Under the pieces are notes generated by a model. That model was not told the origin of the DNA. It worked only from the letters and a program-made list of their open reading frames with translations, and did no database searches. From Alistipes sp. (GTDB lineage Bacteria > Bacillota > Clostridia > Lachnospirales > Lachnospiraceae): 33,643 nucleotides of DNA. Position numbers and translations under genes: made by a program. Location of the stretch: NCBI GenBank assembly GCA_023666775.1, contig JAMPBI010000003.1:1-33643 (forward strand), read 5' to 3'. Each line of letters begins with the position of its first letter. Position 1 is the stretch's first letter. Of this stretch, positions 17,405 through 29,022 are shown in pieces.

Positions 17405-17718
17405 CAAAACTCCCGCCCTCTGAAGTTCAAGCGAAAGCTTCTTCAAAGGACGGGAGTGACTAAATCCCGTGTTACCACCTTTATTCACCGTTGGCTCACG
17501 CCGCCGGCCTCATCAGGTACGAAAGCAGCCGCGCCGCTTCTTATACCCTTGACAAATAACGGATGTCATGCCGTCCGGTCCTACTTATCGCGAATGTTCA
17601 GCCGGCTGCTCCGGGACGTATTCCCAAAAATTTCCTCCTGCGCCTCTCATCTGCCGGCTGCTTTCTGTAGGTATCCCTTTTTGGTACTTGTTCCCTTCCC
17701 TGCATTTTCTCTTATACA
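17405..17718 (-). promoter_or_regulatory. T-box leader of tyrS with attenuator terminator
   Basis: The untranslated leader of about 350 bases ends in the conserved T-box GGTGGTAACACGGGA (about 17466-17480) and a strong terminator stem (17409-17457, ACTCCCG/CGGGAGT) followed by TTTTGTTTT. Upstream, CAGCCGGC/GCCGGCTG and CCTAC/GTAGG arms build a Stem I-like structure. Binding of uncharged tRNA to the T-box would release the terminator. A UAC at 17618-17620 is one candidate tyrosine specifier, but I could not settle which triplet is used. Confidence 0.9.
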
Positions 17719-23434: not shown

Positions 23435-25795
23435 CTACACAAATATACTCCCCACAGCATACACCAGCAGCGCCGCGATCCACGCCACAACACACTGCCC
23501 TGCTGCCATATACACCGCCCATTTTCCGCCAAGTTCTCTCTTAACGGAAGAAATTGCCGCAACGCAAGGCGTATAAAGCAGACAGAAGATCAACAATGCC
23601 GCAGCCGCTAACGGCGTAATGGCGAGAAGCAGATTTTCCGTGGAACCAAACAAAACCGACAGCGCGGAAACCACGCTCTCTTTTGCCATAAATCCCGTGA
23701 TCAAAGCCGTGGACACTCTCCAGTCCCCGAAACCGAGAGGTTTAAACACAGGCGCGATCACGCCTGCCGCCATGGCAAGAAGACTGTCTCTCGAATCAGA
23801 AACCACATTCATATGCACGTCAAACGTCTGTAAAAACCAGATCAATATCGTCGCCACAAAAATAACCGTAAACGCCCTCTGCAAAAAATCCTTTGCTTTC
23901 TCCCAGAGAAGCTGTCCCACATTTTTTATTCCCGGCATACGATAGTTGGGAAGTTCCATGACAAACGGAACCGGTTCTCCCTTAAACATCGTTCCCTTCA
24001 AAAGAAGCGCCATCAAAATTCCTACGGCAATACCGGTAAAATACAGTCCTACCATAATAAGACCTCCTTTTCCCGGGAAAAATGCCGCCGTAAAAAATCC
24101 GTAAATCGGCAGTTTCGCCGAACAGCTCATAAACGGCGTAAGAAGTATGGTCATTTTGCGGTCACGCTCCGAAGGCAGCGTTCTGCTTGCCATAACGCCC
24201 GGAACCGTGCAGCCGAACCCGATAAGCATCGGCACAATGCTTCTGCCGGACAGACCGATCTTACGCAGCAGCTTGTCCATGACAAAAGCAACCCTCGCCA
24301 TATAACCGCTATCCTCAAGAAGAGACAGAAAGAAAAACAGCGTAACAATAACCGGCAGGAAACTCAGCACGCTTCCCACACCGTTAAAAATACCGTCGAT
24401 CACCAGCGAATGAATGACCCCGTTGACGTCCGCAGCCGTAAGGAGCGCGTCTGCCCGCTCCGTTATCCAGCCGATACACAGCTCGAGAATTTCCGAGAGC
24501 CATGCCCCGATCACATTAAACGTAAGGAAAAACACCAGCGCCATAATACCGATAAAAACCGGGATCGCCGTATATTTTCCCGTAAGGATTTCGTCAATCT
24601 TGCGGCTTCTCGCGTGTTCCCTGCTCTCCCTCGGCTTGATCACCGTCTCCTCACAGACTTTACCGATAAATGTAAAACGCATATCCGCGATGGCTGCCGC
24701 ACGGTCAAGACCGCTCTCCTCCTCCATCTGCAAAATAATATGCTCCAACATCTCTTTTTCGTTCGCGCTCAGACCAAGACTATCCAGTATCAGCGTATCA
24801 CCTTCCGCCAGTTTGCTCGCCGCGAACCGCACCGGTATCCCCGCCGCCTTCGCGTGATCCTCGATCAGGTGCATGATACCGTGAAGACACCTATGCACCG
24901 CACCTTCCTTTCCCTCGCTGCTGCAAAAATCGGTTTTCGCGGGACGCTCCTGATACTTTGCCACATGAATGGCATGGTCGATCAGCTCCCCAATACCCTC
25001 ATTCTTTGCCGCGGAAATGGGAATGACCGGAATACCCAGCAGTTCTTCCATATCGTTTACGAGGATTGCCCCGCCGTTTTCCCGCACCTCGTCCATCATA
25101 TTCAGCGCAAGCACCATCGGAACATTCAGTTCCAAAAGCTGCATGGTCAGATACAGATTACGCTCGATATTCGACGCGTCCACGATATTGATAATGCCCT
25201 TCGGCTTATCCTTCAGCACAAACTCCCTCGTCACAATCTCTTCACTCGTGTAAGGCGACATGGAATAAATGCCCGGAAGGTCCGTCACCAGCGTCTCCGG
25301 GTGACCTTTCATCACACCGTCTTTCCTGTCAACCGTCACTCCGGGAAAATTTCCCACATGCTGGTTTGCCCCCGTCAACTGGTTAAACAGCGTTGTCTTG
25401 CCGCAGTTCTGATTGCCCGCCAGCGCAAATGTGATCGTCTCTCCCGCAGGAAGCGGATTTTCGTCCTCCTTCGTATGGAACTTGCCGCCCTCGCCAAAAC
25501 CCGGGTGCGCCGTCTTCTTAACCTTTCGCTCGCGCGCCTCGCTGTTCTCCTCCGTCTTCCCGTCCCTGATATCGCCGATTTCTATTTTCCTTGCGTCCGC
25601 AATCCTAAGCGTCAGCTCATAGCCATGTATCTGCAATTCCATAGGATCGCCCATAGGTGCCAGTTTCACCATGGTCACTTCCGCTCCCGGGATCACTCCC
25701 ATATCGAGAAAATGCTGCCGCAGCGCCCCTTCGCCGCCCACCGCGCAGATGGTGGCAGTTTTTCCCAGATGAAGCTCATTTAACGTCGTTGCCAT
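23435..25795 (-). CDS. feoB: FeoA-FeoB fusion, ferrous iron transporter
   Basis: This is a GTP-dependent inner-membrane Fe2+ importer. The 786-residue protein begins with a FeoA-type SH3-like domain (about 1-75), then a charged linker, then the FeoB G domain. G1 is GNQNCGKT (127-134), G3 is DLPG and G4 is in NMMDE. The C-terminal half is polytopic with the usual gate regions. FeoA and FeoB are normally separate genes, and fusions occur in some anaerobes. ATG 25795 follows AGGAGATG. A promoter lies at 25821-25849; no Fur-like box was recognised. Its 3' end meets the convergent orphan RNA, whose hairpin probably terminates feoB. Confidence 0.95.
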   Translation of the reverse strand: MATTLNELHLGKTATICAVGGEGALRQHFLDMGVIPGAEVTMVKLAPMGDPMELQIHGYELTLRIADARKIEIGDIRDGKTEENSEARERKVKKTAHPGFGEGGKFHTKEDENPLPAGETITFALAGNQNCGKTTLFNQLTGANQHVGNFPGVTVDRKDGVMKGHPETLVTDLPGIYSMSPYTSEEIVTREFVLKDKPKGIINIVDASNIERNLYLTMQLLELNVPMVLALNMMDEVRENGGAILVNDMEELLGIPVIPISAAKNEGIGELIDHAIHVAKYQERPAKTDFCSSEGKEGAVHRCLHGIMHLIEDHAKAAGIPVRFAASKLAEGDTLILDSLGLSANEKEMLEHIILQMEEESGLDRAAAIADMRFTFIGKVCEETVIKPRESREHARSRKIDEILTGKYTAIPVFIGIMALVFFLTFNVIGAWLSEILELCIGWITERADALLTAADVNGVIHSLVIDGIFNGVGSVLSFLPVIVTLFFFLSLLEDSGYMARVAFVMDKLLRKIGLSGRSIVPMLIGFGCTVPGVMASRTLPSERDRKMTILLTPFMSCSAKLPIYGFFTAAFFPGKGGLIMVGLYFTGIAVGILMALLLKGTMFKGEPVPFVMELPNYRMPGIKNVGQLLWEKAKDFLQRAFTVIFVATILIWFLQTFDVHMNVVSDSRDSLLAMAAGVIAPVFKPLGFGDWRVSTALITGFMAKESVVSALSVLFGSTENLLLAITPLAAAALLIFCLLYTPCVAAISSVKRELGGKWAVYMAAGQCVVAWIAALLVYAVGSIFV

Positions 25796-25879: not shown

Positions 25880-25908
25880 TTGAAATATCGCAAAATAAGG
25901 AGTAAAAT
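25880..25908 (+). promoter_or_regulatory. sigma-A promoter of the OFA transporter
   Basis: TTGAAA (25880-25885) and TAAAAT (25903-25908) are 17 bases apart, predicting a start near 25915 and a leader of about 135 bases. Confidence 0.65.
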
Positions 25909-25914
25909 GAGCGT

Positions 25915-26049
25915 GGTTTCATTGAGGCTGAAGAAAGACATATACAATTAGAAAAAAGAAAGGATTATGCTGCTGCCCATTTCTCTTCAGCCATACAACA
26001 CATATACGGGCAGTACCACAGGATTTCCTGTATCAGCATAGGTAACTAT
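25915..26049 (+). promoter_or_regulatory. structured leader with possible pseudoknot, OFA transporter
   Basis: Complementary segments: GGCTGAAGA (25926-25934) with TCTTCAGCC (25984-25992); CTGCCC (25973-25978), in the loop of that stem, with GGGCAG (26008-26013); the adjacent TATGCTG (25966-25972) with CAGCATA (26034-26040); and ACAGGA/TCCTGT (26018-26031). Loop-to-downstream pairing is pseudoknot geometry, and the last arm abuts the weak ribosome binding site AGG before ATG 26050. This suggests a cis-regulatory RNA; no known riboswitch class was recognised. Confidence 0.45.
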
Positions 26050-27342
26050 ATGAAAAAACCACAAAACAAATGGGTCTGCGCGGCCATTCCCGCACTGCTT
26101 CTCCATTGCAGTATCGGTACGGTATATTGCTGGTCCTTGTTAAGCGAGAATATTGCTGTCGCAATCGGTATGGGCGCAGAGGGCAAAGGCTCCGTGGAAT
26201 GGGCTTTTAGTTTTGCCATTTTCTTCCTCGGCATGTCCGCCGCGTTTCTGGGAAGCGTTGTGGAAAAAGACATTCACAAATCTTCCCTGATCGCGACGTT
26301 CTGCTTCGCGATCGGCATGGCGGGAACGGGATTTGTTATTTCCATGGCGGATAAACTGGGACCAAGGCTCTCCCTAATTGGAATTTATGTATGCTACGGA
26401 TTTATCATGGGGATCGGTCTGGGAACCGGCTACCTGTCCCCGGTCAAAACTTTGATGTTATGGTTCAAAGACAAAAAAGGTCTTGCGACCGGTCTTGCCG
26501 TGGCAGGCTTTGGCGCCGCGAAAGCGATTGCCAGCCCGATCATGGAAGCGCTTCAAAATTCCGTTGGTATCGTCAAAATGTTTTACATTCTGGCAGTTGT
26601 ATACTTCATTATGATGTTTTTAGGACACCTGCTCCTTTCCAAACCGGAAGGCTGGAAAGAAGAGCCTGTACCAAAGGGCGAAGGCGCGTTAAGCGTACTG
26701 AAATCCAGAACGTTTATCGGTATCTGGCTGATTTTCTATATCAACATCACCTGCGGCCTCATGCTGATCTCGCAGGAGAAATACATCATCAAGGCGATCG
26801 GGCTTGCGGGAATGGTCGGTATCATCAGTTCCGTTACCGCCGTTGCCAATGCCGGCGGACGGCTTGGTTTCTCCGCGTGGGCAGATAAAATGAAAGACCG
26901 CAACACCATTTACAAGATCATTTTCATCTTATCCATCGCGTTTACGGCAGTTACCATTCTGACAAACGGAATTACCAACAGCGTCGTATTCGTGGTAATC
27001 GCCCTGCTTCTGATGGTAAACGCGGGATACGGCGGAGGTTTCAGTAATCTCCCGACGCTCCTTTCCGACCATTACGGAATGAAAGCCATCAGCTCCATAC
27101 ACGGAATCGCGCTTTCCGCATGGGCATTTGCCGGACTTACCGGAAACAACCTTTCCAACTGGATCGTAAATACCTTCGGCAAAGCGATTGAGATTTCCGA
27201 CGGACACGGCGGAATGCTCTCCGTAAACCCTACCGGTTACCAGAAAGTTCTGTTCGTCACCTGCGCGCTGTACATTGTCGCGCTGCTGATCAGTATTTTC
27301 GTGATCAAACCGGTAAATGAGAAAAAAGAAACCGCTGAATAA
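26050..27342 (+). CDS. OFA-family MFS transporter (oxalate/formate antiporter-like)
   Basis: This is a 12-helix major facilitator protein of the OFA family, which exchanges or imports small carboxylates. The 430 residues include the family block GTGYLSPVKTLMLWFKDKKGLATGLAVAG (helix 4-5 region; given in parts: GTGYLSPVKTL, then LMLWFKDKKGLATG). The start at ATG 26050 has only a weak AGG Shine-Dalgarno. The frame stays open for 48 codons upstream but has no ATG, GTG or TTG, so an earlier start is unlikely. It is monocistronic, with a promoter at 25880 and a terminator at 27367. The substrate cannot be named from sequence; pyruvate, oxalate or another monocarboxylate are candidates. Confidence 0.85.
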   Translation: MKKPQNKWVCAAIPALLLHCSIGTVYCWSLLSENIAVAIGMGAEGKGSVEWAFSFAIFFLGMSAAFLGSVVEKDIHKSSLIATFCFAIGMAGTGFVISMADKLGPRLSLIGIYVCYGFIMGIGLGTGYLSPVKTLMLWFKDKKGLATGLAVAGFGAAKAIASPIMEALQNSVGIVKMFYILAVVYFIMMFLGHLLLSKPEGWKEEPVPKGEGALSVLKSRTFIGIWLIFYINITCGLMLISQEKYIIKAIGLAGMVGIISSVTAVANAGGRLGFSAWADKMKDRNTIYKIIFILSIAFTAVTILTNGITNSVVFVVIALLLMVNAGYGGGFSNLPTLLSDHYGMKAISSIHGIALSAWAFAGLTGNNLSNWIVNTFGKAIEISDGHGGMLSVNPTGYQKVLFVTCALYIVALLISIFVIKPVNEKKETAE

Positions 27343-27413: not shown

Positions 27414-28415
27414 TTATCCCAACTTATGTATTTCTTCCTGTAATTTTCCAAGAAACGCAAGGATATCCTCAAATTCCGGTATATTTCCATATATCATATT
27501 CCGCATTGCCTGGTAATCCTCCATCAGTTCTTTGAGTATGTTTTCTCTTGGCAAAAGCTCTATACTCCCCAAAGTTGCCGTTTCATAATGAGCCCCTTTC
27601 GCATAGTAAAATTTTTGCTTAAAAGCAACATCCTTTTCCAATAATTCTTTTCTTTTAAATGCGCTATCCTTTACCCATGAATTACCCAGATTATAGACGT
27701 CATACAAATGTCTTGCATAGCGGGCAGGCAGCGGCTTTCCTTCTTGAAAATTCGCGATTTTATGTAATATCGTCAGCTTCTCCCAAAAGGTTCGTTCTAC
27801 ATCAATAGTTAAAACACTTGTTTCCTTCTGCAAAAATATATCCGGATATTTTTCAGCCGCAAAGGAACAAACAAAGGTTTCATGCGAAGGCATCCACTCC
27901 GCCAACGGTCCTATTTCCAATCTGACACAGGAACGCAAATACTCTGTTTTAAAGATTTGTGGATAATAAAAATTCACCACCATTCTGTCCTCTGTATCAA
28001 CAGACACCCAATCTCCCTCTCCCAATTTTTTCTTAAGTTCCCCATTCAGGTTCGGAACCAATTCCTCCCCGTAAAATCTTGCAGCTTCCGCATTGATTTG
28101 TTTGTTAAATAAATCCTGCTTTGTTTTCGATCTTTCACTCCATGGATTTACTTCTTCATTTATTATCTTCCTCCAGTCCAAAATCAGGTCAATATCCTCA
28201 GAAAATCGCTCAATTAAATGATAAGACTTTGAAAGACTCGTTCCGCCTTTAAAGACAAATGCCTTTTTATATTGGCAATCATGAAAAAGATGATCCAGCA
28301 TAAAACAAACCCAAAAATCTTTCTCTACCACATCAGGCTGCATTCCCATTTTAATTGCGGTTGCCCGAAATAATTCAGTTCTATCCCCAATCGGTAATTT
28401 AGCTACTTCTTTCAT
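27414..28415 (-). CDS. abiEii: AbiEii-type nucleotidyltransferase toxin
   Basis: This is the toxin of a type IV toxin-antitoxin or abortive-infection system. Characterised relatives are nucleotidyltransferases, and some modify tRNA acceptor ends. The 333 residues carry the polymerase-beta-fold motifs FKGGTSLSK (56-63 region) and RFSEDIDL (70-77), whose acidic residues bind metal. ATG 28415 is four bases after the AbiEi stop. Base composition is AT-rich and unlike the flanking transporters, as expected for a mobile defence cassette. The fold assignment is confident; the phage-defence role is inferred from the family. Confidence 0.88.
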   Translation of the reverse strand: MKEVAKLPIGDRTELFRATAIKMGMQPDVVEKDFWVCFMLDHLFHDCQYKKAFVFKGGTSLSKSYHLIERFSEDIDLILDWRKIINEEVNPWSERSKTKQDLFNKQINAEAARFYGEELVPNLNGELKKKLGEGDWVSVDTEDRMVVNFYYPQIFKTEYLRSCVRLEIGPLAEWMPSHETFVCSFAAEKYPDIFLQKETSVLTIDVERTFWEKLTILHKIANFQEGKPLPARYARHLYDVYNLGNSWVKDSAFKRKELLEKDVAFKQKFYYAKGAHYETATLGSIELLPRENILKELMEDYQAMRNMIYGNIPEFEDILAFLGKLQEEIHKLG

Positions 28416-28419
28416 GCCA

Positions 28420-29022
28420 TTATAAACATACCTTTCTGATCACTTCACATATCCACTCACTTACACCGGCTGTATCTTTCAAAATCTGTTTTCTTTCCTC
28501 TTCCGGTAATCTGTTTCTCAAGTTCAAAATAACAGCGTCATCTACTCTTTCTTTTCCCAATGTCCTGATTGCCTCCACGACTAACGTCGCAGTTTCCGAC
28601 ATCAATGAAATCTGACGGTTGGTCCGATGTTTAAAGGAAATCGTTACATTATCCCATGAAAATTTTCTATAAGGTCCATCACTTATATAAGACCAGACAA
28701 CAGGAACTTGTGTTGATAAACCAAGTTTATTCAACGCTACATCTCCACATGGTGCGATTGTCCAATGAAATCCCCTTGCAATAGCATACGCAACTCTCTC
28801 CGGGTCAGCCGGAACATATTCTTTCAGCAAATTGCTATATACAGGTTTTTCATAAACTCCGTCAATAATTCGACGAATAGTCTTTTCCTCAACCTGTCTC
28901 CCCAAACATTTTCTAATTGTTGTAATCGTTGCTATATCCGTAAAATCAGATGTTACAAATACCGAACCATCTTCAGCATTCAATATTCTCTTTTTTATCT
29001 CGGTATATATTCCATTGGTCAT
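28420..29022 (-). CDS. abiEi: AbiEi-type antitoxin and autoregulator (DUF6088-like)
   Basis: This is the antitoxin of the AbiE pair. In this family it does not bind the toxin but represses the operon through an N-terminal winged helix. The 200 residues include an N-terminal DNA-binding-like part (FVTSDFTDIATITTIRKCLGRQV, here in parts: FVTSDFTDIATITT and IRKCLGRQV, about 22-45), then the conserved AYAIARGFHWTIAPCGDVALNKLGL region. ATG 29022 is about nine bases after AGGAG. It lies directly upstream of the toxin, and its promoter is bracketed by a perfect 12-bp inverted repeat, the likely operator. Confidence 0.82.
   Translation of the reverse strand: MTNGIYTEIKKRILNAEDGSVFVTSDFTDIATITTIRKCLGRQVEEKTIRRIIDGVYEKPVYSNLLKEYVPADPERVAYAIARGFHWTIAPCGDVALNKLGLSTQVPVVWSYISDGPYRKFSWDNVTISFKHRTNRQISLMSETATLVVEAIRTLGKERVDDAVILNLRNRLPEEERKQILKDTAGVSEWICEVIRKVCL

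Follow-up and report, generated by a model that had tools for sequence, protein, structure and literature searches.

Among the short, multi-copy, palindromic and lineage-restricted repeats known as REP/RAYT, ERIC, the B. cereus bcr repeats and the Rickettsia palindromic elements, some are transcribed and structured. To our knowledge, no such repeat is placed exactly between a Shine–Dalgarno (SD) sequence and the AUG, and none carries a replacement split SD. The preQ1-II and SAM-II type riboswitches and the E. coli S15 leader have a pseudoknot in the 5′ leader, with the SD in or next to the fold, and control related genes via a ligand or a protein. The only precedent that we found for initiation bridged by RNA structure at split ribosome-binding sites is that of bacteriophage T4 genes 25 and 38, where it is documented (PMC3014915; Nivinskas, Malys). 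Our study describes a family that resembles the first group in consisting of dispersed structured repeats, but differs from the riboswitch and S15 leaders in that its pseudoknot separates SD from AUG and the genes concerned are unrelated. As in T4 genes 25 and 38, an SD lies too far from the AUG, the intervening RNA structure would shorten the effective spacing, and some lineages have the arrangement while others do not. However, the T4 structure spans 22–27 nt and occurs in single genes, whereas here a pseudoknotted element of ~75 nt stands between the upstream SD (SD1) and the AUG, before many genes.

The window, by which we mean the whole stretch of 33,643 nt that was analysed, comes from an uncultured Lachnospiraceae genome that is 78 % complete, and the features of its transporter leader are collected in Table 1. 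The original prediction described a 9-bp stem, 13 contiguous loop bases able to pair with CAGCATA and GGGCAG, a small hairpin bracketed by these two downstream segments, and a last pairing segment adjoining the weak ribosome site. Every one of these pairings was recovered, all Watson–Crick and all contiguous; the loop bases (TATGCTGCTGCCC, 25966–25978) form 7 bp with CAGCATA and 6 bp with GGGCAG, the last segment adjoins A-GGU, and the topology is that of an H-type pseudoknot whose second helix carries an inserted hairpin (P3). The AAAGGA of SD1 and the promoter-like sequence had no part in that prediction; from the predicted promoter the mRNA would start ~10 nt 5′ of the element, and a similar block, TTGAA...GGAGTARAAT, is found upstream in several orthologues. 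The architecture recurred in 1 of 3,000 dinucleotide-preserving shuffles of 25910–26049, and the sub-element 25964–26042 gave a folding z of −3.35 (0/200 shuffles). As the structure is a pseudoknot, the nested fold of the whole leader does not stand out (z = −0.73).

Table 1. Features of the transporter leader and gene in window coordinates
Feature	Position	Strand	Basis
Predicted promoter, TTGAAA-N17-TAAAAT	25880..25908	+	From sequence
P1 5′ arm, GGCUGAAGA	25926..25934	+	Pairs with 25984–25992 (9 bp); family covariation; compensated in L062
SD1, Shine–Dalgarno-like AAAGGA in P1 loop, just 5′ of c1	25959..25964	+	Motif in 80/84 long copies
c1 5′ arm, UAUGCUG, closing the junction beside SD1	25966..25972	+	Pairs with 26034–26040 (7 bp)
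Possible 24-codon uORF, MLLPISLQPYNTYTGSTTGFPVSA, judged incidental	25967..26041	+	Peptide unconserved
c2 (pseudoknot helix) 5′ arm, CUGCCC	25973..25978	+	Pairs with 26008–26013 (6 bp)
P1 3′ arm, UCUUCAGCC	25984..25992	+	Pairing and family covariation
c2 (pseudoknot helix) 3′ arm, GGGCAG	26008..26013	+	Pairing; native versus swapped test in 69 copies
P3 hairpin, ACAGG AUUU CCUGU	26018..26031	+	26018–26022 pairs with 26027–26031 (5 bp); strong family covariation
c1 3′ arm, CAGCAUA	26034..26040	+	Pairs with 25966–25972
Weak SD2, AGGU, 6 nt 5′ of the start codon	26040..26043	+	Weak in 80/84 long copies
MFS transporter, oxalate/formate and L-lactate carrier group	26050..27342	+	NCBIfam SfMCT 222 bits, TIGR00890 118 bits; both below cut-offs

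The window leader is an old, divergent single copy of a dispersed structured RNA family whose elements measure ~80–150 nt. A two-sequence model (R1) led to a third copy, L163, in front of motA in a different genus; a model of the window and L163 (R2) then brought up multi-copy relatives. When a 15-member covariance model (R3), from which the window and its nearest orthologous copy (L062) were left out, was run on the genome of the window, the window itself was the sole match (33.5 bits, E = 0.007). The same model found at least 85 copies at E ≤ 1e-6 in genome G220 (137 at E 0.1), ~59 in G027, ~40 in G305, 15 each in G172 and G192, and 10 in G214. At E ≤ 0.001 it matched at least 22 of 397 sampled Lachnospiraceae genomes, a lower bound because few candidates were scored per genome; at E ≤ 0.01 two genomes of a neighbouring family matched, and a third family gave one weak match. 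There was no match in a 149-genome sample across the phylum, which is weak evidence of absence because the threshold there misses the window itself.

No known riboswitch had been recognised in the leader, and this held against the 4,227 models of Rfam, where the window leader rose above no threshold and gave chance-level matches only at permissive cut-offs. The L062 and L163 leaders gave nothing relevant in Rfam, and at 12 loci with copies the element itself was unmatched. A DNA similarity search in 98 relatives returned chance matches only, the best non-self match lying antisense within an unrelated coding gene. Conserved-motif patterns in viral contigs gave nothing or coding coincidences only, and the element consensus had no match in phage and plasmid records. 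Searches of the open-access literature on pseudoknot leaders and on dispersed or start-codon repeats turned up no account of the element, although an earlier description is possible. Two resemblances were set aside: the P3 loop of L163 is like a CsrA site, but its GGA is not retained in other copies, and the helix order differs from that of an HDV-like ribozyme.

Among ~110 orthologous transporters, the element was present only in the window and in L062, the nearest orthologue with an element, which encodes a protein 89 % identical in a Lachnospiraceae genome of a different genus; ~105 others were without it. All the other leaders viewed were unexceptional: AAAGGA or something similar stands near the AUG in many of them, and in some of these element-free leaders AAAGGA lies ~10 nt from it. 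In L062, P1 is CCGGAGUA/UACUCCGG compared to GGCUGAAGA/UCUUCAGCC in the window, and P3 is GCAG/CUGC compared to ACAGG/CCUGU; the two leaders are identical in the loop AUGCUGCUGCCC, in GGGCAGUA and in CAGCAUA. The fold has thus been retained while the sequences of P1 and P3 were replaced, so that the arms of orthologous leaders change with compensation and not one at a time. The original prediction had cautioned that the transporter frame is open across the leader. The frame is indeed open in the window, but L062 has several stops in the same frame, and there is therefore no protein-level conservation of it. In a tree of the transporters the window, L062 and the element-free L063 group together, with the branching order among the three not separated, and this grouping is consistent with a single ancestral gain, with or without loss in L063.

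Covariation across the family supports the same helices. P1 and P3 pair in 90.7 % of cells, compared to 39–47 % in slid controls, and both sides change in 12 of 20 pairs, a value reached by 0/500 shuffles. For the pseudoknot helix, 69 long copies scored 16.8 with native partners, 14.8 ± 0.3 when partners were swapped and 11.5 ± 0.3 when shuffled. Helix c1 differs in sequence in other copies yet still pairs.

The family is not specific to the transporter. Of the copies examined, 83/98 run exactly up to an ATG from which an ORF of 60 codons or more extends, a placement somewhat favoured by construction, because the search models contain the ATG. The downstream genes, identified by eye from their N-termini and not by annotation, are unrelated and many are housekeeping genes; they include ackA (acetate kinase), tsaD, truA, proB, nusB, pth (peptidyl-tRNA hydrolase) and those for RibD, DapF, CopA, MotA and a Rho-like protein, among others. 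Tandem copies abut exactly at GGGTATA/AGGTTG, which defines the ends of the element and indicates that one copy can occupy the SD2–AUG spacer of another. An SD-like motif lies upstream of 24/80 non-tandem copies, compared to 8/86 control windows. In G220, whose copies seem to be the youngest, ~13/16 copies counted by eye have this motif; most G027 copies have no visible old SD upstream. Of ten loci occupied in G027, the congeneric genome G385 has a diverged copy at two and no recognisable element at the other eight, where a purine-rich SD mostly lies close to the AUG. Insertion into SD–AUG spacers is the simplest reading of these comparisons, and loss instead of gain is possible at some G385 loci. 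The ends of the element, AGGTTGAAAG and GGGTATA, are not inverted repeats of each other as the termini of a MITE would be, and a comparison for target-site duplications met A-rich flanks and was ambiguous.

Long and short copies differ in where the ribosome site lies. Beside the pseudoknot, long copies have an upstream SD-like AGAAAGGA, and their site near the AUG is weak, whereas short copies are without both the SD1 segment and the pseudoknot and usually have a strong site near the AUG. SD1 was present in 80/84 long copies, of which one had a strong SD2 and 80 only a weak one; among 21 short copies, 2 had SD1 and 16 had a strong or medium SD2. The trade-off points to SD1 as the working site of long copies. 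Close to its AUG, L062 has no SD at all, and its sole candidate is SD1, 77 nt upstream; in the window the linear SD1–AUG distance is 85 nt and the site beside the AUG is AGGU, a weak SD2 that might suffice alone. In both leaders the pairing positions give the T4-type combination of a distant SD and a structured segment that would reduce the spacing.

On balance, we consider it probable from these comparisons that the family consists of dispersed insertions in SD–AUG spacers that form a structure-bridged split ribosome-binding site. The copies, whose placement is seen directly, would have been inserted between the ancestral SD and the start codon, and occupancy of that spacer would account for their ending right at the gene's AUG. 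In the long form, P1 and c2, joined by c1 in the window, would place SD1 and the tail with the AUG side by side at a single helical junction; from the pairing map, the folded SD1–AUG gap across c1 is estimated at ~10 nt for the window and ~13 nt for L062. Initiation would then proceed as on the split sites of T4 genes 25 and 38, and expression of the host gene would select for the fold, which would explain the compensatory change seen at one locus. Most G220 and G027 copies have a pseudoknot form without c1, in which the bridged spacing is ~17 nt and bridging is less clear. A switch in which folding of P1 gates SD1 is possible, and is conceivable since the 3′ arm of P1 is complementary to SD1 in most copies.

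The foremost alternative, which we regard as unlikely, is a regulatory RNA, either a riboswitch or a protein-binding leader, that serves a regulon and has on and off states in which the 3′ arm of P1 (UUCUUUC) pairs with the upstream arm or with SD1 (GAAAGGA). The conserved pseudoknot does hold SD1 in a loop; SD1 resembles the 5′ arm of P1, so that in most copies the two are rivals for one strand; and covarying structure in a 5′ leader, kept at one locus across genera, is what a riboswitch or autoregulatory leader would present. Against this, the downstream genes share no common pathway, copy number runs from 1 to >85 per genome, complementarity between SD1 and the P1 3′ arm is weak in L062, and a ligand-pocket consensus is not obvious. 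The original prediction of an RNA controlling translation is therefore borne out as far as a covarying 5′-leader pseudoknot placed for initiation is concerned, but not as control specific to the transporter. Its suggested response to carboxylates finds no backing in a family that precedes unrelated genes and is absent from nearly all orthologous transporters.

Somewhat less likely again is a selfish palindromic repeat: mobility, through single-stranded DNA hairpins of the IS200/IS605 or REP type, would maintain the fold, and the site at the start codon would be no more than tolerated. The many copies, the fixed boundaries of the tandem ones and the differing presence between congeneric species would all fit such a repeat. 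However, the transporter-locus copy has been kept vertically, in single-copy genomes, and retains its fold despite the replacement of P1 and P3, for which mobility alone is insufficient; the SD1/SD2 trade-off points to translation, and terminal inverted repeats are absent.

It is very improbable that a translated leader peptide starting at AUG 25967 couples to or attenuates the transporter: the window does offer a 24-codon ORF ending 8 nt 5′ of the start codon, with an AAAGGA in front of it, but L062 diverges after MLLP and continues past the start, L163 reads AUG-UAA, and the SD–AUG spacing is just 2 nt. Chance base-pairing within former coding sequence, to which the open frame of the window leader lent some colour, has a negligible probability given the shuffling result, the covariation across the family and the stops in the orthologue.

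The structure-bridged split site can also be carried further, to a mobile RNA-structured element that would specifically target SD–AUG spacers and install its own pseudoknot-bridged split SD, acting as a portable 5′ leader through which a single fold-dependent switch governs the translation of many unrelated genes; this extension is tentative, and we consider it rather doubtful. If the split-site reading itself is right, the few bases of a gene under the tightest constraint, from SD to AUG, accommodate a repeat family that is tolerated because it is folded. Structure-bridged initiation would then operate across whole genomes in some gut Lachnospiraceae, and the family would show how a dispersed element can rewire the translation of housekeeping genes. 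It would also provide a testable case of selection retaining a fold while its sequence is replaced, and would affect the annotation of start sites and ribosome-binding sites in genomes carrying the element.

Several further features were observed near copies of the element and elsewhere in the window. In G385, upstream of an ABC-transporter-like gene (L366), there is a P3-like relic, AGTAGTATTGTAAGCAGGCTTGCGATACTGC, that is nearly palindromic throughout and may represent another kind of repeat akin to the element. At four loci (L372 in G385, L253, L313 and L314) P3 has apparently been lost; what is kept is the SD1-like site, a large part of the pseudoknot and the tail leading up to the AUG. 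A RAGATH-18 RNA scored above threshold at L210:899–961, with a copy of the element ~500 nt downstream. Directly downstream of the transporter, on the minus strand (27414–29022), are adjacent ORFs assigned by eye as an AbiEii-type nucleotidyltransferase toxin-like protein and an AbiEi-type partner, the first of which had no NCBIfam match. On its other side, the transporter is flanked by a divergent FeoB gene (23435–25795, minus strand) with an N-terminal FeoA-like domain in the same protein, and a T-box leader at 17443–17709 (minus strand) scored 95.1 bits, above the Rfam threshold.
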